Positions 8,318 through 59,070 of a DNA stretch of 64,000 bases are shown in pieces. This DNA is from Proteinivorax tanatarense. Its GTDB lineage: Bacteria; Bacillota; Proteinivoracia; Proteinivoracales; Proteinivoracaceae. The notes beneath the pieces were generated by a model. That model made no database searches. It was not told the origin of the DNA and saw nothing but the letters and a program-made list of their open reading frames with translations. A program made the position numbers and the translations under genes. Location of the stretch: contig NZ_CP158367.1 in NCBI RefSeq assembly GCF_040267685.1, positions 1,178,001-1,242,000 on the forward strand, read 5' to 3'. The stretch's first letter is position 1, and every line of letters begins with the position of its first letter.

Positions 8318-10948
8318 GTGAATATAGTAACCACTCATGTAAATACAGACTTTGATGGACTTGCATCAATGATAGCATGCACAAAACTATATCCTAACAC
8401 GAAAATGGTATTGCCAGGGAAAGTTAAAAGAAATGTTAAAGAATATATCTCTTTACACAAAGATGTTCTTAAATTTGAAGCACCCTCTGATATAAATGAC
8501 AAAGAAATTGATAAATTAATAATTGTTGATACCGCCTCAGCTAAAAGAATAGGTTCTTTATCTAGACTTATACAAAAAGAAGTTGATATTATGGTGTATG
8601 ACCATCATCCTATATTAGAAGGGAAGAAGCCACAGTGGAGAGTTGAGGAGGTAGGTGCTACAGTTACTATACTAACAGAAGAGCTTATGGAAAAGGGTGT
8701 AGATATATCTTCTTTCGAAGCAACTTCCTTGATACTGGGCATTTATGAAGACACTGGAAATTTATCTTTTGCCCAAACAACTTCTAGGGATTTAAAGGCA
8801 GCAGCTTTTTTGCTGGAAAAAGGTGCTAAGCTATCTTTTATAAGTCAATTTATATCTAAGCCATTGACAGAGAACCAAAAAAGTTTATTAGAGACCTTAA
8901 TGGATAATATGGAGAACTTAGATTTTAATGGTTGGAATGTTGTGGTGTGCACAGCTTCATTAGATGAATTTATTGGAGGAGTTGGAGAGCTAACCCATAA
9001 ACTAGGTAAAATCGAGGATGTAGATGCAGTATTTACGTTAGTAAAAATGATAGACCGAATACATATAATAGGCAGGAGTTTTAACGAAAACTTACCTATT
9101 TCTAAACCTATTGTAGAAATGGGGGGAGGTGGCCATCCCCAATCTGCTGCAGCTACAGTTAAAGATAAGGACTTGGCAGCAATAAGGCAAGAATTTATAG
9201 CTTTGTTGAATAAGTTGCCGTCACCATTAACTGCAGCAGATGTAATGGCTCAACCTGTTAAAACTATTGGTCCTGATGTATCTATTTCAGAAGCAAGCCG
9301 TATCATGCTAAGATATGGTCATACAGGGTTGCCTGTAGTTGAGAATGATAATTTGTTAGGGATTATATCAAGAACAGATGTTGATAAAGCTATACATCAT
9401 GAGTTAACCCATGCACCAGTTAAAGGGTTTATGTCAACTAATGTAATAACTACTTCACCCAAAACTAGTCTCAAAACAGTAAGGCAGAAACTTACCCAAT
9501 ATGATATTGGAAGGTTACCGGTATTGGATGATAGCAAAAAGATGATTGGAATAATAACACGGACTGACGTTCTTAAAGTGATACATGGTAGCCAAGCCCC
9601 TAGGTGGCATAAACCGTTGTATACTTTTAGCGACTATAGCATGGCAGAGCCAAGTGAGAATTTAATGGAGGTTATAAATACGCGACTTCCTAAAAAGATT
9701 CAAGGACTGTTGTGGCTTATAGGTCAAAAAGCTCAAAAAGAGGGCTTTAAAGTTTATGCTGTTGGTGGATTTGTTAGAGATTTACTACTAGGAGTGCCTA
9801 ACCATGACATAGATATTGTGGTGGAACAAGATGCAATTTCTTTTGCCAGAAAAATAGTTAAATACTTAGGTGGGCAAATAAAAGAGTATCAAAAGTTTGG
9901 AACTGCAACAATAACCTTAAAAGATGGAATGAAAATCGACTTTGCTACAGCTAGGATGGAGTTTTATCCCTTTCCGGCAGCAATGCCTGAAGTGGAAGAA
10001 ACAACAATAAAACACGACCTGTATCGAAGAGATTTTACCATTAATACTTTAGCTTTTAGGTTAAATTCTGATAAATTTGGGGATTTTTTAGACTTTTTTG
10101 AAGGAAGTAAAGATTTAGAGCAAGGTAGCATAAAAGTATTATATAATCTAAGTTTTGTGGAGGATCCCACTAGAATTTTTAGAGCTTTTAGGTTTGAAAG
10201 TAGATATTCATTTCACATGGATGATTCTACCATGGGATTTTTGCTTAATGCTTTAGAAAATAATGTTATGCAAAAATTAAGCGGGACTAGAATTTTTGAA
10301 GAATTTCAAGCTATTGTTTTGGAACCTAATCCATCGGTTATTTTAATCAGAGCATTGGAATTAGGAGTTTTAGATAATATTTTCGGTAAATGTAGTAACC
10401 CGCAACAACTAAAGCAAAATTTTAAACATACAATGGATTCAATTGTATGTTTAAAAGAAAAAGGGATTTTAGAAAAAAAAGATTTCATTTTGGTTTATTT
10501 ATTAGTGATAATTAATAGCTATCCTAAAAAGGTTTTTGAAATTATCCTTAAGGACTTTAATTTAGATAAAGGTAGTAGGATAATTATTAGGAACTTCTTT
10601 GATGTAGGATTAGAGAGGATAGAAAAATTAAAATCTAATAAACACCTGGATCCTTCTGAAATTTATGATTCATTAAATGGCCTGAGTGTTCATTCTCTTT
10701 GTGCCATGATGGCCATAGCAGACAATGATTTGCTAAAAAATCGAATATTTTTGTATTTAGAAGAGTTACATAAGGTAGATGTTGAAATTACAGGTAATGA
10801 CTTAAAAGAAATGGGTATAAAACCTGGTCCAGTTTATAGTAAAATTATATCTAGGCTTAGACAACAAAAGTTAAATGGTGAAATACACACAAAAGATGAT
10901 GAATTGAACTATATAAAAAGCTTGGACCTAAAAGAAAGGGGTAGATAA
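8318..10948 (+). CDS. DHH-CBS-CBS-tRNA nucleotidyltransferase fusion
   Basis: 876 residues from GTG 8318, which has GGAGGT seven bases upstream; the 24 upstream codons lack such a site. Residues 1-300: DHH phosphoesterase with HVNTDFDG, IVDTAS, VYDHHP and a DHHA1-like GGGGHPQSAAATV. Residues ~305-430: two CBS domains (DVMAQPVKT, GLPVVENDNLLGIISRTDV, RLPVLDDSKKMIGIITRTDV). Residues ~490 onward: poly(A) polymerase/CCA head with AVGGFVRDLLLG, NHDIDIVVEQ, RRDFTINTLAF and EDPTRIFRAFRF. It repairs or builds tRNA 3' ends. Proteins of this layout include CC-adding enzymes that need a separate A-adding partner; which activity this one has cannot be read here. Confidence 0.93.
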   Translation: MNIVTTHVNTDFDGLASMIACTKLYPNTKMVLPGKVKRNVKEYISLHKDVLKFEAPSDINDKEIDKLIIVDTASAKRIGSLSRLIQKEVDIMVYDHHPILEGKKPQWRVEEVGATVTILTEELMEKGVDISSFEATSLILGIYEDTGNLSFAQTTSRDLKAAAFLLEKGAKLSFISQFISKPLTENQKSLLETLMDNMENLDFNGWNVVVCTASLDEFIGGVGELTHKLGKIEDVDAVFTLVKMIDRIHIIGRSFNENLPISKPIVEMGGGGHPQSAAATVKDKDLAAIRQEFIALLNKLPSPLTAADVMAQPVKTIGPDVSISEASRIMLRYGHTGLPVVENDNLLGIISRTDVDKAIHHELTHAPVKGFMSTNVITTSPKTSLKTVRQKLTQYDIGRLPVLDDSKKMIGIITRTDVLKVIHGSQAPRWHKPLYTFSDYSMAEPSENLMEVINTRLPKKIQGLLWLIGQKAQKEGFKVYAVGGFVRDLLLGVPNHDIDIVVEQDAISFARKIVKYLGGQIKEYQKFGTATITLKDGMKIDFATARMEFYPFPAAMPEVEETTIKHDLYRRDFTINTLAFRLNSDKFGDFLDFFEGSKDLEQGSIKVLYNLSFVEDPTRIFRAFRFESRYSFHMDDSTMGFLLNALENNVMQKLSGTRIFEEFQAIVLEPNPSVILIRALELGVLDNIFGKCSNPQQLKQNFKHTMDSIVCLKEKGILEKKDFILVYLLVIINSYPKKVFEIILKDFNLDKGSRIIIRNFFDVGLERIEKLKSNKHLDPSEIYDSLNGLSVHSLCAMMAIADNDLLKNRIFLYLEELHKVDVEITGNDLKEMGIKPGPVYSKIISRLRQQKLNGEIHTKDDELNYIKSLDLKERGR

Positions 10949-14904: not shown

Positions 14905-15080
14905 GATGCGAATTCGAGGCTGCGATGTGCCAAGAGTACTTTATAAGGAAAGGGGTCGTCGCCGAAATACATTTATGTATTGGGGTTATGTTTTAATAGG
15001 CATAGCACTGTCGCCAGAAGGTTGCCCAACTTTTTGGTGGAGAACTTTTCGCGTTGTGGGCAAAAGGCGCTGCTTAATAG
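14905..15080 (+). promoter_or_regulatory. Lysine riboswitch (L box)
   Basis: The leader contains the ordered L-box core segments: CGAGGCTGCGATG, CAAGAGTACTTTATAAGGAA, GGGGTCGTCGCCGAA and GCACTGTCGCC. An intrinsic terminator and then lysA follow. The element senses lysine and promotes early termination when lysine is plentiful. A reading frame of 81 codons crosses this region (14906-15151) but is a by-product of the structured RNA. All nine genes downstream are plausibly under its control, as no terminator is seen until 24255. Confidence 0.94.
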
Positions 15081-24796: not shown

Positions 24797-25507
24797 ATGG
24801 GAGATAAGAAACTTACTATTGTTGGTCACTTAGCGGAACTAAGATTACGAATAATAATTACGGCCCTCTCTATATTATTTGGTACTATTTTAAGCTACTT
24901 TTACATTGAGGAAATAACACACTTACTAATAATTCCCGCTGGATATCAGGACTTTGTTTATTTAAGTCCTCCGGAGTTGTTTCTTTCATATATCAAGATA
25001 TCTATAATCTGTGGGATATTTTTAGCATTGCCTATTATATTGTTTCAAGTTTGGTTTTTTGTAATGCCAAGCGTAACTATAAGAGATAAAGTTTATATGA
25101 TTCTTGCTATCTTAATGTCAACTATTTTTTTTGTTGGTGGAGTAGTATTTTCATATTTTATAATTATCCCCTTGACATTGGAGTTCTTTACGGAACTCTC
25201 TAGTAATGAAATAACTCCAATGTTTTCTTTTGCCAGTTATCTAAGTTTTATATTATCAATTTTGTTATCATTTGGGTTAGCATTTCAATTACCTTTACTG
25301 GTTTTGTTACTTACTAAACTTAATTTAATAACCCCTGAGCTACTTAAAAAGTCCAGAAAGTATACATTCTTACTGATTTTTTTATTTGCTTCAATTTTAA
25401 CTCCTCCCGATGTAATTTCGCAGGTGCTTCTTGCAGGCCCAATGATCCTGTTGTTTGAGTTAAGTATAATCATATCAAACGTTATAAAATGGAGAAGTAA
25501 AAAATAA
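24797..25507 (+). CDS. tatC: Twin-arginine translocase subunit TatC
   Basis: 236 residues with six membrane spans. GHLAELRLRIIITALSILFG carries the conserved N-terminal E-L-R-R-like segment, and FASYLSFILSILLSFGLAFQLPL and SILTPPDVISQVLLAGPM are TatC signatures. It recognises twin-arginine signal peptides. The predicted Tat substrate at 28337 lies 2.8 kb downstream. ATG follows GGGAGG. Confidence 0.96.
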   Translation: MGDKKLTIVGHLAELRLRIIITALSILFGTILSYFYIEEITHLLIIPAGYQDFVYLSPPELFLSYIKISIICGIFLALPIILFQVWFFVMPSVTIRDKVYMILAILMSTIFFVGGVVFSYFIIIPLTLEFFTELSSNEITPMFSFASYLSFILSILLSFGLAFQLPLLVLLLTKLNLITPELLKKSRKYTFLLIFLFASILTPPDVISQVLLAGPMILLFELSIIISNVIKWRSKK

Positions 25508-25655: not shown

Positions 25656-25723
25656 GAAAAAGGTAAACGTTTATTATAAAAGTATGTTAATATTAAATTA
25701 GTAATCTTAAAGGGGATATGGAG

Positions 25724-26410
25724 ATGACTTCAAGTAAAATTGAGCAAATAAAAAATAAAAAACAAATAGAAGTCTATAAAAGGAAAAGCCAAACACCATA
25801 TGCATTAATTTTAGCAATTATTATAACAGGGATATCGGTTTATTTTTTTAGTGCTAATTCCAGTAAGCTAGGGGTTTTACTTATTTTGGGTACTGCTATG
25901 GGTTTTATTATTCAGAGATCAAGGCTTTGTTTTGCAGGAAGTATTAGAAATTCTATAATGCTAGGTAATGTAAAATTATTGAAATCGGTGGTAATAGCTC
26001 TTATTGTAGCGTCATTTGGTTTTTTTATTTTGCAATATATTGCTGTAGGCGATAGTATCAATATAATTGTAGAACAGGTCCCCGGTCAAATAAAACCAGT
26101 AGGTATTCATACAGTAATTGGAGCTGTTATTTTTGGTATAGGAATGGTGATGGCGGGGGCTTGTGTGTCCGGTAGTCTAATTCGGTCAGGAGAGGGATTT
26201 ATACTTCAGCTTATGGTAATACTGGGTATCGTAGTGGGAACGGTTTTGTCAGGGGTAGTGCTGTTTGAATTTTTTGATCAAACTCTAAATATTCTAAGTT
26301 CACCAACAATATATTTGCCGAAGTTAATTGGCTTTTGGCCCACACTAATTTTACAGTTAGCAGTGTTATTTTTAATATATTTTTTTATGAATTGGTATGA
26401 GAAAAAATAA
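25724..26410 (+). CDS. YeeE/YedE family half-transporter (first half)
   Basis: 228 residues from ATG 25724, eight bases after AAAGGGG; an ATG at 25718 is too close to it. About five to six membrane spans follow a basic N-terminal tail. IIQRSRLCFAGSIRN and MVMAGACVSGSLIRSGEG are the cysteine-containing loops of this family, whose characterised members import thiosulfate via relayed cysteine contacts; others are linked to selenium metabolism. The gene is one of two half-length genes around a TusA-like gene. The true substrate, selenium or sulfur species, is not decided by sequence alone. Confidence 0.9.
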   Translation: MTSSKIEQIKNKKQIEVYKRKSQTPYALILAIIITGISVYFFSANSSKLGVLLILGTAMGFIIQRSRLCFAGSIRNSIMLGNVKLLKSVVIALIVASFGFFILQYIAVGDSINIIVEQVPGQIKPVGIHTVIGAVIFGIGMVMAGACVSGSLIRSGEGFILQLMVILGIVVGTVLSGVVLFEFFDQTLNILSSPTIYLPKLIGFWPTLILQLAVLFLIYFFMNWYEKK

Positions 26411-26433
26411 GGTTAAGCAAAAGGAGGTTAGTT

Positions 26434-26661
26434 ATGGCTGAGTTCAAGCTGGATTGTATGCACGAAGTTTGTCCAATCCCGTTATTAAAAGCTGCGAAGA
26501 AGCTTAAGGTTATGGAGTTTGGTGATGTATTAATAATGAAAACAGACCATAATTGTTCGATAGCAAATGTAATTGAGTGGGTGGACAAGCAAGGACATGC
26601 TATGGACTATGTTGAAGTGGATCAAGGAGAGTGGGAAATTTATATTGAAAAATTGAAGTAA
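26434..26661 (+). CDS. TusA/YedF-like sulfurtransferase-fold protein
   Basis: 75 residues. LDCMHEVCPIPLLKAAKKLK has the CPxP motif whose cysteine carries persulfide or perselenide in TusA-type proteins. An extra cysteine lies in TDHNCSIANVIEWV. In thiosulfate uptake, a TusA-like protein (YeeD) works with YeeE. In selenium-using bacteria a YedF paralogue is linked to selenium metabolism. Nesting between two YeeE/YedE halves strongly suggests it accepts the imported sulfur or selenium atom. ATG follows AAAGGAGG. Confidence 0.92.
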   Translation: MAEFKLDCMHEVCPIPLLKAAKKLKVMEFGDVLIMKTDHNCSIANVIEWVDKQGHAMDYVEVDQGEWEIYIEKLK

Positions 26662-26678
26662 ATTTAAGGGGTTTTAAA

Positions 26679-27182
26679 ATGAAGATTAATAAATCGTGGC
26701 CTTACTGGTTGGGTATGGTTTTGTTGGCTGTCATAAACATTGCATTGTTAGCATTTATAGGCTCGCCATGGCAAATAACTAGTGTTTTTTTATACTGGGG
26801 AATTTTTGTACTGAATTCTTTAGGTTTTGAATCCCTAGGGGAAAGTTATACCATATATTATGGAAATGGATTAAGTTTTGAAGACGCTGAAATAATTTAT
26901 TATTTAACGATACTAAATATTGGTATAATTGCAGGATCGCTATTATCAGCGTTATTATCTTCGGAGTTTAAAGTGAAGAAAATTAAAAACAAGAAACAAT
27001 TAGTGCTAGGGATCTTTGGAGGAGTGCTAATGGGGTTTGGAGCAAGAATAGCTTTAGGATGTACCATAGGAGGTTATTTTAGTGCCATCCCTTCTTTCTC
27101 GTTACATGGATGGGTATTTGCAATTTTTATGTTTTTAGGTGTTTTAATTGGTTGCAAAATATTATACAAAGATTTGATATAA
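26679..27182 (+). CDS. YeeE/YedE family half-transporter (second half)
   Basis: 167 residues with about four membrane spans. GFGARIALGCTIGGYFSAIP with SFSLHGWVFAIF is the YeeE/YedE C-terminal signature, including the conserved cysteine of GCTIG. It should complement the protein two genes upstream. It has its own start after AAGGGG, so the arrangement is two genes rather than a broken single gene. It ends in a bidirectional terminator shared with the convergent LysR gene. Confidence 0.9.
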   Translation: MKINKSWPYWLGMVLLAVINIALLAFIGSPWQITSVFLYWGIFVLNSLGFESLGESYTIYYGNGLSFEDAEIIYYLTILNIGIIAGSLLSALLSSEFKVKKIKNKKQLVLGIFGGVLMGFGARIALGCTIGGYFSAIPSFSLHGWVFAIFMFLGVLIGCKILYKDLI

Positions 27183-27228
27183 AAAAGCTATCATCAACCT
27201 TGCATGGTTTAATGATAGCTTTTTTAAC
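27181..27228. terminator. Bidirectional terminator between transporter genes and LysR
   Basis: AAAAAAGCTATCAT pairs with ATGATAGCTTTTTT around a 20-base loop. A- and T-runs on both sides allow it to act for both convergent units. It overlaps the last codons of both. Confidence 0.9.
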
Positions 27229-28114
27229 AAAATCCTCTTTTAGAAGATTTAATAAAGTCTACAAATTGTTTTTCATAGGTGGACAAAGGATTATCCGCTC
27301 TATATGCTACATAGAATTCATTGTATACCTCTAGACCTTCTACGGTAATTTCTTTTAGAGTACCCTCTTTTAACTCTCTTTTAATTGTAAGTTCAGGAAT
27401 AAATGAAATTCCTTTTCCAGATATTACTGAAGTTTTTATTGCTTCCATTGAATTAAAATGATAAATGATATTTAAATCATTTAATGTTACACCCTTAAGT
27501 TTTAAATGATTATTTATTGTTTCTCTAGTTCCTGAACCTTCCTCCCTAAAGATTAGAGGTAGCTTTTTAAATTCTTCAATATTAATAGATTTCTGTAGAA
27601 AAGGTAATGACGTAACTAATACAAGACGATCACTAGCTATTTTTTCAGTGTTTATATTTTTAGGAGGAGTATTGCCGTGTATAATCCCTATATTAACTGT
27701 TCTATCTAACAGGTTTTTAATAACTCCGACAGAATTATTTATATTAAAGTCTATATTAACATCACTATATTTTTGTTTGTATATATAAATACTACAAGGC
27801 AATGCATATTCACCTACTGCCTTACATGAACTCAACAAGAGTTCTTTTGTTTGAGTTTGCACGTTTTTAAGATCTCGTTCAATATTGCTGTGCATAGATA
27901 AAATGCTATCGGCATAATCGAAAACAATGGCCCCAGCTTCTGTTAATTTCACTCCTTTATTACTACGAATTAAAAGGGAAGAATCTAGCTGCTTTTCTAG
28001 TGATTGTATTTGCATACTAAGTCCAGGCTGTGTTAAATGAAGTTCCTTGGCAGCTTTTGAAATACTATTTAGCTTTACTGTTGTGTAAAAAGATTTTAGA
28101 TGTTGAATGTTCAA
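27224..28114 (-). CDS. LysR family transcriptional regulator
   Basis: 296 residues from TTG 28114, seven bases after AAGGAGGT; the longer frame adds 18 residues without such a site. NIQHLKSFYTTVKLNSISKA, AKELHLTQPGLSMQIQSLEK is the winged helix-turn-helix, followed by the effector-binding domain (FREEGSGTRETINNHLKLKG, GISFIPEL). It resembles CysL/selenium-metabolism-associated LysR regulators. It is transcribed away from the selenoprotein gene and towards the YeeE/YedE genes, so it probably controls one or both. The effector is unknown. Confidence 0.9.
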   Translation of the reverse strand: MNIQHLKSFYTTVKLNSISKAAKELHLTQPGLSMQIQSLEKQLDSSLLIRSNKGVKLTEAGAIVFDYADSILSMHSNIERDLKNVQTQTKELLLSSCKAVGEYALPCSIYIYKQKYSDVNIDFNINNSVGVIKNLLDRTVNIGIIHGNTPPKNINTEKIASDRLVLVTSLPFLQKSINIEEFKKLPLIFREEGSGTRETINNHLKLKGVTLNDLNIIYHFNSMEAIKTSVISGKGISFIPELTIKRELKEGTLKEITVEGLEVYNEFYVAYRADNPLSTYEKQFVDFIKSSKRGFC

Positions 28115-28224
28115 GCTGAAGACCTCCTTATAAAAAACCTTATTAACAAGGTAAAAAACTTGTAGCAAATAACATTATAGCATAACAATATGTTACTGAT
28201 AAGGCCTAAGGACATAAAAGACTA

Positions 28225-28301: not shown

Positions 28302-28336
28302 TTTAACATGAAAACATAATTTAAGGAGGACTTAAA

Positions 28337-28993
28337 GTGGAGAAAAAAGAAAAACAAATTTCACGTAAAGATTTTATTAAGGGAGTAGGCACTTCATTAG
28401 CTGGAGTTACTGTTCTTGGCGGAATGGGGCTAATGGCTGGATGTTCTGAAGGAGCTGATTCTTCTGCAACAGATAAATCAACTCCTGATTGGCCATTTCC
28501 ATACGTAACTCTTGATCCAGATAAAGTGGCTGACAGAACTTATAAAGCTTATAAAGAAATGGGTGGCTGAGGTGTTGGTGTAGCCGAAGGGTTCTTCGGC
28601 ATGTTAGCTGACGAAGTGGGTTATCCATTTAATCAGATACCGGCAATGGCTTTTGTTAATGCTGGTGCCGGTTATGCTGGTCAGTACAGTTTATGTGGTT
28701 CCCTTGGTGTAGCAGCTGCCTGTATTGGGACTGTTTGTGAAGCAGATACTCAAAGAAAGCTAGTAAATGAGCTTTGGGATTGGTATAAGGAGCACCCCTT
28801 CCCTCAATATCAACCAGCAGAAATGGACTTAGAAAATACCGTAGCAGAATCTGTACTTTGTAGTGATTCTGTAGGTAAATTTATGCAAGCGCAAGGTATA
28901 ACATTTGGAGATCCAGAGCGTGGAGAGCGTTGTGCTGGTGTTGCGGCAGAAATTGCTAAAAAGACAGTTGAACTGTTAAATGAAACGTTATAA
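28337..28993 (+). CDS. Tat-exported C_GCAxxG_C_C-type redox lipoprotein with selenocysteine
   Basis: 218 residues from GTG 28337 (AAGGAGG upstream) if the in-frame TGA at 28568-28570 is read as selenocysteine (residue 78). The start ISRKDFIKGVG resembles a twin-arginine signal (RK variant), and VLGGMGLMAGC ends in a lipobox with Cys36. The mature part has DWPFPYVTLDPDKVADRTYK, then GG-U-GVGVAEGFFGML where relatives have Cys, then SLCGSLGVAAACIG, VLCSDS and ERCAGVAAEIA. Homology continues unbroken across the UGA. The domain is a putative redox protein of unknown substrate. Selenocysteine is inferred from UGA position plus the hairpin; biosynthesis genes lie outside the window. Confidence 0.9.
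28568..28600 (+). promoter_or_regulatory. Selenocysteine UGA and bacterial SECIS-like hairpin
   Basis: TGA at 28568-28570 is followed by a perfect 7-bp stem GCCGAAG / CTTCGGC (28583-28589 and 28594-28600) with a GGTT loop. The loop starts 20 bases after the UGA, within the spacing known for bacterial SECIS elements, and has the expected G and U. SelB recognition is inferred. Confidence 0.85.
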
Positions 28994-29015: not shown

Positions 29016-29055
29016 GCAGTAGGTAGCTACTTTGTAGCTTGCCTACTGTTTTTTA
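29016..29055 (+). terminator. Terminator after the selenoprotein gene
   Basis: GCAGTAGG-TAGCTAC pairs with GTAGCTTGCCTACTG around a 3-base loop with one bulge, followed by six T. Confidence 0.88.
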
Positions 29056-29290: not shown

Positions 29291-31114
29291 ATGGCTAATA
29301 AAATTATAACAAAGCCAAAAGAGATAAGTGAGAATCCAAAGGTGTTGTATACTGGTAATCATTATATTGCTATACCCATTATAGACTGTAAAAGTGGAGG
29401 GGTAAAGAGTATAAATCTCTTATCAAGCACAAATAAAGCTCTAGTTGAAGTGGAAGGTAGAAAGGATTTATTTTATCCTAAATTTTATAAAGGGGATAAA
29501 GGTCTGAAAATTGAAAAAATAGAAGGAGAAAAAGAACTTTTTTATTCGCCTAGACTCATATTTCACTTGGAATTTAATATTAAGGTAGTGCTTAAACTTT
29601 ATGCTGATTTATGCGAGAAAGGCTTTGTGTTTCAATTTGAAAGTAATGAAAATATAGAAGTAGTACTTGAATTTAACGTAAGCCAATTAAATCTTTTACG
29701 ATTCAACTCTCATCCGGTAAAAACAGATATCGAGTTTATGAAAGACAAATGGCTTTCAAACCCTGTAGTTAATTTGTCAAGTGAAAAAATTTCCTTAGCT
29801 ATGGGTTTTGGTGGAGAAAAGGATTTTACATATAAGTATGACAAAGTTTTAAAGCTTGCAGAATTAAAAGTTAAGTGTAACAGAAAAAATGCCATCTATG
29901 TTACAGTAAATAGTGATCCTGATGGTGCATCTACTACTTTAATTCACTTAAAGAGAAAGGGTTATCATAATATATATAACCAGTTAATAAGTTGGTTAAA
30001 AGAAAAAATTATTAGTTATTCACCAGATAAACAGTTAGAAAAAGTAATGAATGAAAATTTATTTTTTAATTATTTTTATGCAATAGGCAAAGATATGGAT
30101 ACAGACCAATACATCGCATTAACATCAAGAAGTCCTAGGTATTATGTGTCTGGTGCTTTTTGGGAAAGAGATAGCTTTCTGTGGTCTTTTCCAGCTATTA
30201 AACTAATTGATTATGAACTTCATAGGGAACTTTCACGAGAGATGATTATAATGCATAGTAAAAATCCCGGAGATCATGCTCACTATATTGATGGTACCGT
30301 GCTATATCCTGGATTTGAATTAGATGAGGCAGCCAGTTATTTTATTTTACTAGGGGAACTAGAGTACAACTATATAGATGATGAAATCATGAGAGCATTT
30401 TTAAAGGTATGGAATTCCATCGAAAAAAGGTATGATGAAGAAACAAGACTTTATAGCACGTTTTTACTTCCATCAGATGATCCTGCAGAATACCCTTTTG
30501 TAACTATAAACAATGTGATTTTACATCGGGGATTGCTTAATTATAAAAAACTATTAGAATTTAAAGGTGAGTATGAAAAAGGGGAATTCATCTCTAGAAG
30601 AATTGAAGGTATTGAGTTAGGAATAAAAAGACACTTATTAAAAAAAGTAAAAGGAAAGAAAATGTTTCTATGGTCAGCAGACGGAAAGGGGAATTTTCGA
30701 CTTTATAATGACCCGCCTGGAAATCTAGGTTTATTATGTTACTATAACTACGTTGATAAAGATGATAAAGCTTTTGTTAATACAATTAACTATTATTATT
30801 CGACAAAATATAAATATTTTTTTGAGGATGCTAAAATACAGGAGCTGGCATGTGATCATCATCCTAATACTCCGTCAGGACTTGGGTTATGCGGAAGCAT
30901 TTTAAATCCTATAAAAAGAAAAGAGGCGCTCCGGTGGCTAAAACATGCAAGAATGGACAACGGTCTGCTATCAGAAAGCTATGATAAAAATACTGGTGAA
31001 GGTAAAACAGGTGTCGGATTTGCAACTGGTTCAGGATATTTAGCCTTTGCACTTTACTATGCACTAATTAAGGAGGGGTTGAGTGAAAGTAGCAGCAGTT
31101 CACTGGACCAGTGA
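29291..31114 (+). CDS. Probable six-hairpin glycosidase-fold protein
   Basis: 607 residues without signal peptide, so cytosolic. The first ~230 residues look like a beta-rich domain. From about residue 270 an (alpha/alpha)6 barrel is suggested by FWERDSFLWSFPAIKLID, YPGFELDEAASYFILLGELE, TFLLPSDDPAEYPFVTIN, ELACDHHPNTPSGLGLCGS and HARMDNGLLSESYDKNTGEG. The W-E-R-D-S motif resembles six-hairpin glycosidases such as alpha-mannosidase or glucoamylase relatives. The exact family and substrate are not recognised. It overlaps the next gene by 32 bases, so it is one operon with two nitrilase-superfamily genes. Confidence 0.7.
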   Translation: MANKIITKPKEISENPKVLYTGNHYIAIPIIDCKSGGVKSINLLSSTNKALVEVEGRKDLFYPKFYKGDKGLKIEKIEGEKELFYSPRLIFHLEFNIKVVLKLYADLCEKGFVFQFESNENIEVVLEFNVSQLNLLRFNSHPVKTDIEFMKDKWLSNPVVNLSSEKISLAMGFGGEKDFTYKYDKVLKLAELKVKCNRKNAIYVTVNSDPDGASTTLIHLKRKGYHNIYNQLISWLKEKIISYSPDKQLEKVMNENLFFNYFYAIGKDMDTDQYIALTSRSPRYYVSGAFWERDSFLWSFPAIKLIDYELHRELSREMIIMHSKNPGDHAHYIDGTVLYPGFELDEAASYFILLGELEYNYIDDEIMRAFLKVWNSIEKRYDEETRLYSTFLLPSDDPAEYPFVTINNVILHRGLLNYKKLLEFKGEYEKGEFISRRIEGIELGIKRHLLKKVKGKKMFLWSADGKGNFRLYNDPPGNLGLLCYYNYVDKDDKAFVNTINYYYSTKYKYFFEDAKIQELACDHHPNTPSGLGLCGSILNPIKRKEALRWLKHARMDNGLLSESYDKNTGEGKTGVGFATGSGYLAFALYYALIKEGLSESSSSSLDQ

Positions 31115-31904
31115 TGTGTATAAAAAAATAACTGATGAACGAAGCCTATTTACTGCTATGGAAAAGGAGCTTAATAAAGCGCAGCAGCAAAAAGTGCAAC
31201 TTATTGTTTTCCCTGGCTTTTTAGGGTGTTTATATGCACAAATAACAATGGAAAAATTTAGTGAATACTTAGATATGGTATATAAGTTTTCTAAAGAGTT
31301 CAAAGTTGCTATATGTCCGGGTTCTTATTGGGAGAAAACTAATAATGAATGTTATCACTCTACCTCTATAATAAAAAATGGCAAATTGATTGTGAACCAA
31401 AGACAGATATATCTAGCTAAATGGGAACAAAGGATAGGTCTAAGCAGAGGAATAAAACTTAACACTTGTCAACTGGGGAAGTTTAATATAGGAATTATGA
31501 TATCCACTGATAACTTTTATCCTCAAGTTGGTAGGGCGTTGGCTAAAATGGGATGTGATTTAGTATTATCGCCTATAGGTTTAGTTGGAAATTATAATGA
31601 AGCATTACAAATAAGTGGGGTTCATCAAAAAGTACAACAAAATTTATTTTTTGCAATAGAATGTGGGTTTAATGGAAATGTTAAGGGAAATAGTTTTTGG
31701 TCTAGTTCTAGTATACATGCACCTCTTTTGATGACTGCTGAAGAAAGGGGATATTTGTGTAAATCAAATAGCACCCCCCAGCTATTGACGGCAGAGTTAG
31801 TACATAAAGATAGGTTAAAAGCGATTTCTAATTTCAATGTTTTGAATCATTTAAACACTGAATTTTATTGTAAAATGAAAATGTTTAACGGAGGTATAAA
31901 ATGA
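31083..31904 (+). CDS. Nitrilase-superfamily pseudoenzyme
   Basis: 273 residues from GTG 31083, with AGGAGGGG upstream. The carbon-nitrogen hydrolase fold is clear: KVQLIVFPGFLG, INQ-type KNGKLIVNQRQIYLAKWEQR, and FNIGIMISTDNFYPQVGRAL then DLVLSPIG. All three catalytic residues are replaced: Glu of FPE is Gly (VFPGF), Lys of the RKxHL loop is Gln (RQIYL), and the nucleophile Cys is Ser (MISTD). It is probably inactive and may pair with the next protein or bind a ligand. It overlaps both neighbours. Confidence 0.85.
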   Translation: MKVAAVHWTSDVYKKITDERSLFTAMEKELNKAQQQKVQLIVFPGFLGCLYAQITMEKFSEYLDMVYKFSKEFKVAICPGSYWEKTNNECYHSTSIIKNGKLIVNQRQIYLAKWEQRIGLSRGIKLNTCQLGKFNIGIMISTDNFYPQVGRALAKMGCDLVLSPIGLVGNYNEALQISGVHQKVQQNLFFAIECGFNGNVKGNSFWSSSSIHAPLLMTAEERGYLCKSNSTPQLLTAELVHKDRLKAISNFNVLNHLNTEFYCKMKMFNGGIK

Positions 31905-32962
31905 CAAGTGCAAGAGTTCTCAGATACCTACTTGAAAAAAAACTTAATACAAACCTAATAGATCAATATTATGATAAATTACCTGCCTTAGACGAAATTA
32001 GAATTTCAGACCAAACCAACCTAAAGGTATCCTGTATACAAAGGGAAGTTATTCTTGTAAAAGATATTAAGGATTATTTGGATATGGCTAATTCGTTTGT
32101 GAAAATAGCGGTAAAAGAAGGTAGCGATCTGGTTGTGTTTCCTGAATATAATTTTTTTGATTTATTTGGTTTAATTCCTGGAACTAAAAAGATCAATAAT
32201 TACATAAATAAAAAAAATACTTCTTCTGATTTAACTGATAAAAATGGGACTGCAGAGTTTAAAGGACGTAATTATTTAAAAAACATTTTAGCTGTTACAG
32301 CAAAACCTATAAGTAAAGCTATTAGGAAAATTTACTCTCAACTTGCAAATCACTATGGTATTTATATTTATACAGGTACATTTATAGAGAATAGAGGGGG
32401 GGTTTTATACAACACAGGATCCCTATTTGATAACAAAGGAAACCTTATAGGAAATCAAGATAAAATACACCTAACAGAGTTTGAAGAACAAATAGGTATA
32501 ACAAGAGCCAATCAGCTTAATATTCATAATTTGCCATGGGGCAAATTAGCTTTCCCTATATGTATGGATGCTACATATTATGAAACTTTTCAAATTGCCA
32601 AAGAATATGAGGCAGACTTTGTTATTGTACCCATAGCTAATATGGAAGAGTATAGTATGTGGAGAGCGTTAAGAGGGGTTTGGCCTAGGGTACAAGAAAG
32701 TTATGTTTACGGACTTAAGTCTTCTTTAAACGGATGGATTTTCGGGGTTCACTTTACAGGGAAAGCTGGTATTTTTGCTCCCCTATCAATAACGGCTAAA
32801 AAGGATGGTGTGATCGCACTTGCTCCCAATTATGAAGGGAATTATGTAGTGACATCGGAACTTGTACTATCAAATTTATATGAGGCTAGGGAAAATGACG
32901 AGTATTTTGGTGACAAAAACCATTGTTTTGAGAAGGAATATATTAAAAATACTTACCTTTGA
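31901..32962 (+). CDS. Carbon-nitrogen hydrolase (nitrilase superfamily), intact triad
   Basis: 353 residues. The catalytic Glu is in DLVVFPEYNFFDLFG, Lys in GNQDKIHLTEFEEQIG and Cys in FPICMDATYYETFQIA. About 40 residues precede the fold (VLRYLLEKKLNTNLIDQYYD), and an insert of ~60 residues follows the Glu motif. These enzymes hydrolyse nitriles, amides or N-acyl bonds; the substrate here is unknown. ATG 31901 follows GGAGG and overlaps the pseudoenzyme gene by 4 bases. Pairing with a glycosidase suggests processing of an amide-bearing sugar or sugar-peptide (speculative). Confidence 0.88.
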   Translation: MTSARVLRYLLEKKLNTNLIDQYYDKLPALDEIRISDQTNLKVSCIQREVILVKDIKDYLDMANSFVKIAVKEGSDLVVFPEYNFFDLFGLIPGTKKINNYINKKNTSSDLTDKNGTAEFKGRNYLKNILAVTAKPISKAIRKIYSQLANHYGIYIYTGTFIENRGGVLYNTGSLFDNKGNLIGNQDKIHLTEFEEQIGITRANQLNIHNLPWGKLAFPICMDATYYETFQIAKEYEADFVIVPIANMEEYSMWRALRGVWPRVQESYVYGLKSSLNGWIFGVHFTGKAGIFAPLSITAKKDGVIALAPNYEGNYVVTSELVLSNLYEARENDEYFGDKNHCFEKEYIKNTYL

Positions 32963-49916: not shown

Positions 49917-49930
49917 GTATATCTTATTAA

Positions 49931-50283
49931 GTTCGAGTAGATTTATAAGCCGAGTTCTGTACTTTCTTGTGAAAGTGATAGTCATCTATCTTGGATGTTA
50001 GTTGCCTAACACCTCCAGCGACCATACCCGAGGACGCAACGGGCAATTGCATATATCCTCCTACTTGGTCTTGCTCCTAGTGGGGTTTACCTAGCCAACT
50101 AGTCGCCTAGTTGCTGGTGCGCTCTTACCGCACCTTTCCACCCTTACCAGCATAGCTGGCGGTTTATTTCTGTGGCACTATCCTTGAGGTCACCCTCACT
50201 GGACGTTATCCAGCACTATGCCCTACGGAGCTCGGACTTTCCTCAGATACTAAAGTATCCGCAACTATCCCATCTACTCAAAC
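49931..50283 (-). ncRNA. rnpB: RNase P catalytic RNA
   Basis: About 353 bases on the minus strand. Read in that sense it contains GAGGAAAGTCCGAGCTC, GGGTGGAAAGGTGCGGTAAG and AGCGCACCAGCAAC, CGGGTATGGTCGCTGGAGGT, and ends with ACAGAACTCGGCTTATAAAT, the RNase P RNA core. Helix P1 pairs the 5' GTTTGAGTAGAT with the 3' ATCTACTCGAAC, which fixes the ends to within a few bases. It matures tRNA 5' ends. Confidence 0.95.
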
Positions 50284-58833: not shown

Positions 58834-58874
58834 TAAAAAAACCTTTCGTCTTTAAATAAAGAGACGAAAGGTTT
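58834..58874 (-). terminator. T-box-controlled terminator of leuS
   Basis: On the minus strand AACCTTTCGTCTC pairs with GACGAAAGGTT, closing an AT-rich loop and followed by seven T. The 5' arm overlaps the antiterminator. Confidence 0.92.
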
Positions 58875-59070
58875 GGTTCCGTGGTACCACTCTTGTTGAG
58901 CATAGCCTGTATGCTCCACTTAAATACAAATAACGGTGTTAGCCGTAGCAGGCTATCTATTTACCTGCTATCCTCAAAGGTGAGTTCAAAGCAAAGCCTA
59001 CCTTTTTACACCAACCAAAGGCTCTCTGTAAGGCTAAAAACTTTTACTACTCCTTGTCAAAGGAAATAAA
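58875..59070 (-). promoter_or_regulatory. T-box riboswitch of leuS, leucine CTC specifier
   Basis: On the minus strand the leader holds GGAGTAG near the 5' end, a specifier loop GAACTCACC with CTC at 58984-58982 (Leu), and the T-box GAGTGGTACCACGGAACC at about 58892-58875. Uncharged tRNA-Leu pairing would favour the antiterminator. The codon and the downstream gene agree, so the assignment is strong. Confidence 0.94.

Follow-up and report, generated by a model that had tools for sequence, protein, structure and literature searches.

Positions 28337–28993 of the window, that is, of the whole 64,000-nucleotide stretch of the Proteinivorax tanatarense genome which was analysed, almost certainly form a selenoprotein gene. 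We base this reading on sequence comparison: the homologues have only Cys or UGA at the codon in question, a stem–loop with compensatory base changes is linked to the UGA, the part behind the UGA is under purifying selection and the genome carries the sel genes. That both halves of our proposal hold jointly, namely that the UGA is decoded as Sec78 and that the product, which lacks the haem part, is homologous to split-Soret cytochrome c in its N-terminal domain, also by fold, we consider very probable.

Reading frame and homologues

The frame runs from a GTG at 28337 to the TAA at 28991–28993 and its sole break is the TGA at 28568–28570. An earlier reading of the DNA, made from the sequence only, had given exact coordinates for the two same-frame pieces joined by this TGA. 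It had also foreseen that ordinary gene callers would split the gene, and standard ORF calling indeed yields exactly two pieces of 77 and 130 residues. The features of the gene are as follows.

28323–28329, plus strand: strong Shine–Dalgarno sequence AAGGAGG, seen in the sequence 7 nt 5′ of the GTG start
28337–28993, plus strand: selenoprotein gene with the UGA read as Sec78, 218 residues; PF09719 protein and split-Soret N-domain homologue without haem tail
28337–28444, plus strand: predicted export signal with the Tat-like SRKDFI, a hydrophobic stretch and the putative lipobox MAGC; Cys36 is the predicted lipid anchor
28568–28570, plus strand: UGA codon of Sec78, aligned with an invariant Cys in homologues
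28583–28600, plus strand: bSECIS-like stem–loop with GCCGAAG (28583–28589), loop GGTT (28590–28593) and CTTCGGC (28594–28600)
28694–28696, plus strand: codon of the invariant Cys120 (67-sequence alignment; also Cys in 1H21)
28859–28861, plus strand: codon of the invariant Cys175 (same alignment; also Cys in 1H21)
28931–28933, plus strand: codon of the invariant Cys199 (same alignment; also Cys in 1H21)
29017–29054, plus strand: inverted repeat CAGTAGG..CCTACTG with T6 behind it, resembling a terminator, seen in the sequence and not listed by the consensus scanner

The same UGA is present in a genome of the same genus (71% identity), in one of the same family (55%) and in Alkaliphilus peptidifermentans (72%). 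We searched 398 genomes of the phylum with a profile and obtained matches in 54 genomes. For 79 of the 82 aligned matches, a few of which are repeat copies of one locus, a letter is available at the column of residue 78. This letter is UGA in 26 and Cys in 53 cases and never anything else; the expectation that homologues carry Cys at this place thus holds, every one having either Cys or UGA. In an alignment of 67 sequences, residues 78, 120, 175 and 199 are invariant Cys/Sec. The tree requires at least five changes between Sec and Cys and places the window protein within a group of 14 Sec sequences. Where it is measurable, dN/dS 3′ of the UGA amounts to 0.10–0.20, which indicates purifying selection on this part of the gene. 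The genome of the window encodes a second PF09719 protein (L018, G000:C1:2326400-2326759), which is of the Cys type and matches TIGR01909 with 120.8 bits (cut-off 47.4).

The stem–loop downstream of the UGA

The perfect 7-bp stem with its GGTT loop had been described correctly before and is kept, with compensation, in independent Sec genes. It begins 12 nt after the UGA, and the loop 19 nt after it. The bacterial SECIS model asks for a G within the first two loop bases and a loop 16–37 nt past the UGA (PMC13188914); the hairpin of the window, with G as the first loop base, fits this model. A hairpin of such quality (stem of at least 7 bp, GC content at least as high, G in the loop, spacing in the SECIS range) is met at 0.5% of random window positions. 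At four TGAs of the window the frame is open for 60 codons or more on either side, and only the one at 28568 has such a hairpin beside it.

After removal of near-copies, a hairpin in the proper range, with a G in the loop and no fewer than 6 bp in the stem, was found in 19 of 20 Sec genes and in 8 of 50 Cys genes (p=6e-10), and the mean folding energy is −15.4 kcal/mol for the Sec genes and −7.9 kcal/mol for the Cys genes. The earlier designation of the hairpin as SECIS-like is borne out by this distribution, as Sec genes have a hairpin and most Cys homologues have none. Within the group of the window protein, compensatory changes are seen at the paired columns 19/30 and 21/28 (GC to CG and AU to GC). 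There, 94.9% of the hairpin cells are paired, seven of them doubly changed; none of 500 shuffles reached as high a value and the pairing is destroyed once the partner arm is slid. We therefore reject the reading as a chance hairpin, in view of the background rate, the enrichment in Sec genes and the compensatory changes. In a more distant Sec subgroup another hairpin takes its place, located 31 nt past the UGA. Two adjacent Sec-containing split-Soret genes of genome G116 (L054:1601-3729, minus strand) have the loop AGTT at 31 nt after the UGA instead of 19 nt.

Selenocysteine machinery

The genome of 3.09 Mb, assembled in one contig, was examined for the Sec machinery. A selenoprotein would call for selA, selB, selC and selD, and all four are present: tRNA-Sec (selC) scores 76.5 bits (gathering score 47), SelB 363.9 bits (cut-off 242), SelA 535 bits (cut-off 268) and SelD 383.7 bits (cut-off 125). 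SelA and SelD lie in one cluster together with a LysR regulator which exceeds the selenium-metabolism cut-off (279 versus 250). The SelD gene (L020:7199-8203, minus strand) has an in-frame UGA of its own (KAAG-U-GAK), and UxxK is the motif listed for SelD selenoproteins (PMC9312934). This is an independent sign that the organism decodes UGA as Sec. The mere presence of selB is a weak discriminator for the use of Sec in this family. Genomes bearing the PF09719-type family are enriched in selB (48 of 52, p=3e-6), but at the same threshold selB occurs in 262 of the 398 sampled genomes of the phylum and Cys-only genomes have it too.

The sequence evidence strongly indicates that SelB and tRNA-Sec insert Sec78 at the UGA at 28568 and that the stem–loop at 28583–28600 directs them.

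Other readings of the UGA

A single base separates UGA from the Cys codons TGT and TGC, and a nonsense mutation or a base error in an ordinary Cys gene would look the same in one genome. Yet this codon is UGA in numerous other genomes and genera as well, the sequence downstream of it is under purifying selection, the hairpin is enriched in the UGA genes and the Sec machinery is in place. The count at the residue-78 column refutes a pseudogene or sequencing error in practice, and we regard it as extremely improbable. Nor do we give credit to two separate genes, that is, a lipoprotein of 77 residues and a second protein starting from ATG 28601. These are exactly the genes that ordinary ORF calling yields, but no ribosome site is found 5′ of 28601 and the homologues consist of one chain, with Cys where the two pieces would meet, on which grounds this reading was rejected. 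The split would in addition lose one of the invariant residues.

UGA is reassigned in a few bacteria, so a general reassignment to Trp, or else near-cognate read-through with insertion of another residue, has to be weighed as well. Other genes of the window terminate in UGA, as the sequence-only reading had pointed out, and the aligned residue is always Cys and never Trp. Both facts led us to reject general reassignment, and a specific Sec machinery and a hairpin likewise speak against any residue other than Sec, which we take to be most improbable. The selenoprotein reading proposed at the outset thus appears well supported by the sel genes, the Cys/UGA column and the compensated hairpin.

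Kinship with split-Soret cytochrome c

The protein matches PF09719 (C_GCAxxG_C_C) with 38.4 bits, above the gathering score of 27. TIGR01909, whose NCBIfam name is C-GCAxxG-C-C family (seleno)protein, is not matched at E 0.001 by the window protein, which shares the Pfam domain with this family; at the same E it is listed for 35 of the 67 aligned family members. The best NCBIfam match is the split-Soret model NF047622. With 108.3 bits, below the equivalog cut-off of 400, the window protein is no equivalog of this model.

The predicted structure has a pLDDT of 88.5 and its best match in the PDB is 1H21 (rmsd 1.4 Å over 170 columns, E 7e-11), the structure of split-Soret cytochrome c, an electron carrier, from Desulfovibrio desulfuricans ATCC 27774, which was deposited for a "novel iron centre". 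A sequence profile finds 1H21 with E 2e-29; it aligns the signal region as well and keeps all four Cys positions. Unlike 1H21, the window protein has Sec in place of the first Cys, is a predicted lipoprotein and lacks the haem tail with its CxxCH motifs. Both the window protein and the five relatives closest to it stop where the alignment with 1H21 ends (residue 189 of 247), and none of these six proteins contains a CxxCH haem motif, whereas sister Sec sequences have two such motifs in a C-terminal tail. The window protein thus belongs to a branch without haem, and the wider group includes Sec-bearing dihaem split-Soret proteins. Sequence and predicted fold show that the product is homologous, though haem-less, to the N-terminal domain of split-Soret cytochromes c, a kinship which the earlier reading had missed. 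Two CxxCH motifs were seen in the Sec-containing matches L028, L029, L030, L031, L032, L033, L034 and L053; these are apparently split-Soret dihaem cytochromes c bearing selenocysteine.

Probable export and a putative redox site

The sequence-only reading had called the product a Tat-type lipoprotein. The hydrophobic signal and a plausible lipobox speak for a lipoprotein, whereas the motif SRKDFI is neither SRRxFL nor a twin arginine. The Tat consensus (S/T)RRxFLK is also unmatched in the nearest genome, G004, which has SRGDFI; close relatives have SRK or SRG, other family members RR. Tat export is thus possible. Relative to the lipobox pattern [LVI][ASTVI][GAS]C, the MAGC of the window has Met at −3, and relatives have LAGC or LSGC; we regard MAGC as plausible. 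On the whole it is likely that the protein is exported and held by a lipid anchor on the outside of the membrane.

Sec78, Cys120, Cys175 and Cys199 could jointly make up a single redox site, for which an iron or iron–sulfur centre with a selenolate ligand is plausible; we see the chances for and against such a site as evenly balanced. From the invariance of the four cysteines it may be supposed that they hold the iron centre in 1H21. A metal-free catalytic pair of Sec78 and a Cys, which would form a selenenylsulfide in an extracytoplasmic reductase, is a serious rival to the iron site, even if we are inclined to doubt it. Catalytic cysteines often lie at the start of a helix, and Sec78 is predicted to be at such a place. 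Moreover, selenoproteins of known function are mostly thiol-type redox enzymes (PMC9312934). The protein has, however, neither a CxxU nor a UxxC motif, and there are four invariant positions, not two, all of them common to a protein described with an iron centre.

Gene neighbourhood and possible role

The surroundings of the gene, which the earlier reading had also overlooked, consist of the following genes.

24797–25507, plus strand: TatC (TIGR00945, 190.4 bits, cut-off 132.7)
25718–26410, plus strand: first half of a YeeE/YedE transporter (domain matches)
26434–26661, plus strand: TusA-like protein with CPxP motif, between the YeeE halves
26679–27182, plus strand: second half of the YeeE/YedE transporter (domain matches)
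27224–28168, minus strand: divergent LysR regulator, nearest to the selenium-metabolism LysR model (234.8 bits, cut-off 250)

TatC is some 3 kb distant from the Sec gene and is also found beside several other Sec loci. The true start of the LysR gene is probably near 28114; a divergent LysR gene adjoins the Sec gene in L017 and L093 as well. The arrangement at 25718–27182, with YeeE in two genes around the TusA-like gene, is kept in L017, L093 and L094. Directly 3′ of the A. peptidifermentans Sec gene there is a small lipoprotein-like gene (L017:5759-6127), and a homologue of it occurs near the L094 Sec gene (9755-10189).

Of 19 Sec loci that were examined, the window counted, 9 have YeeE, TusA and LysR genes next to them, and so do several Cys homologues; this suggests a connection with sulfur or selenium uptake. 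Members of the YeeE family import thiosulfate, for which the TusA-like partner is essential in E. coli (PMC11582611). Co-occurrence has led to the proposal that YedE and LysR_Se are selenium genes (PMC5322559); a term search of this paper gave no mention of the PF09719-type domain family. Among the candidate transporters that were tested in Methanococcus, of which YedE was one, none could clearly be linked to any selenium species (PMC11097638). The window gene adjoins the same types of genes as the YedE/YedF/LysR_Se candidates, but these neighbours all score below the selenium-specific cut-offs: the first YeeE half reaches 49.7 of 200 bits for TIGR04112 (seleno_YedE), the TusA-like protein 30 of 110 bits for YedF, and LysR remains below its cut-off as listed above. 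Sulfur is thus at least as likely a substrate.

Together with YeeE, TusA and LysR the window protein might process a sulfur or selenium compound for import while this is still outside the cell, either reducing it or transferring its chalcogen. We put this role forward tentatively, with rather less than even confidence, and against it stands that roughly every second Sec locus lacks the linkage to YeeE. The fullest form of the proposal appears unlikely as a whole: in it, an iron or iron–sulfur centre would have Sec as its natural selenolate ligand, the split-Soret-type protein around it would sit at the cell surface and make sulfur or selenium compounds ready for YeeE/TusA import, and the sister sequences of this protein would be dihaem split-Soret cytochromes c that bear Sec.

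Relation to described selenoproteins

Published tables of predicted selenoproteins already include PF09719, as form 1, with the accession MGD8741185.1, and form 2, with WP_012158890.1 (PMC9312934, PMC13188914), and to call a Tat-exported, lipid-anchored selenoprotein of this family unusual, as had been done, was too strong. The main text of the 2008 marine-metagenome paper to which form 2 is credited makes no mention of the family, and among the open-access papers searched we found none joining "split-Soret cytochrome" with "selenoprotein". What looks undescribed is the split-Soret identity, the exact Sec site at one of four invariant cysteines, the haem-less architecture and the neighbourhood of sulfur/selenium-import genes. 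Should form 2 have Sec at the same Cys, the window protein would simply be a member of form 2.

A little-described entry in the lists of predicted selenoproteins thus gains a structural identity as a split-Soret fold, the Cys that is replaced by Sec can be named and the family is tied to a sulfur/selenium-import neighbourhood. This opens to testing whether Sec serves as a natural iron-cluster ligand and what the cargo of YeeE/YedE–TusA modules in anaerobes is. UGA-split genes of the PF09719-type family are likely mis-annotated in selB-bearing genomes.

Other features of the window

Downstream, the region 29291–32962 encodes a protein of 607 residues without NCBIfam match and then two tandem nitrilase-like genes; the latter score below all curated cut-offs, and homologues of these genes follow in the same order in L093. 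Rfam models further identify a lysine riboswitch at 14906–15055, RNase P RNA at 49930–50280 and a T-box leader at 58857–59069.
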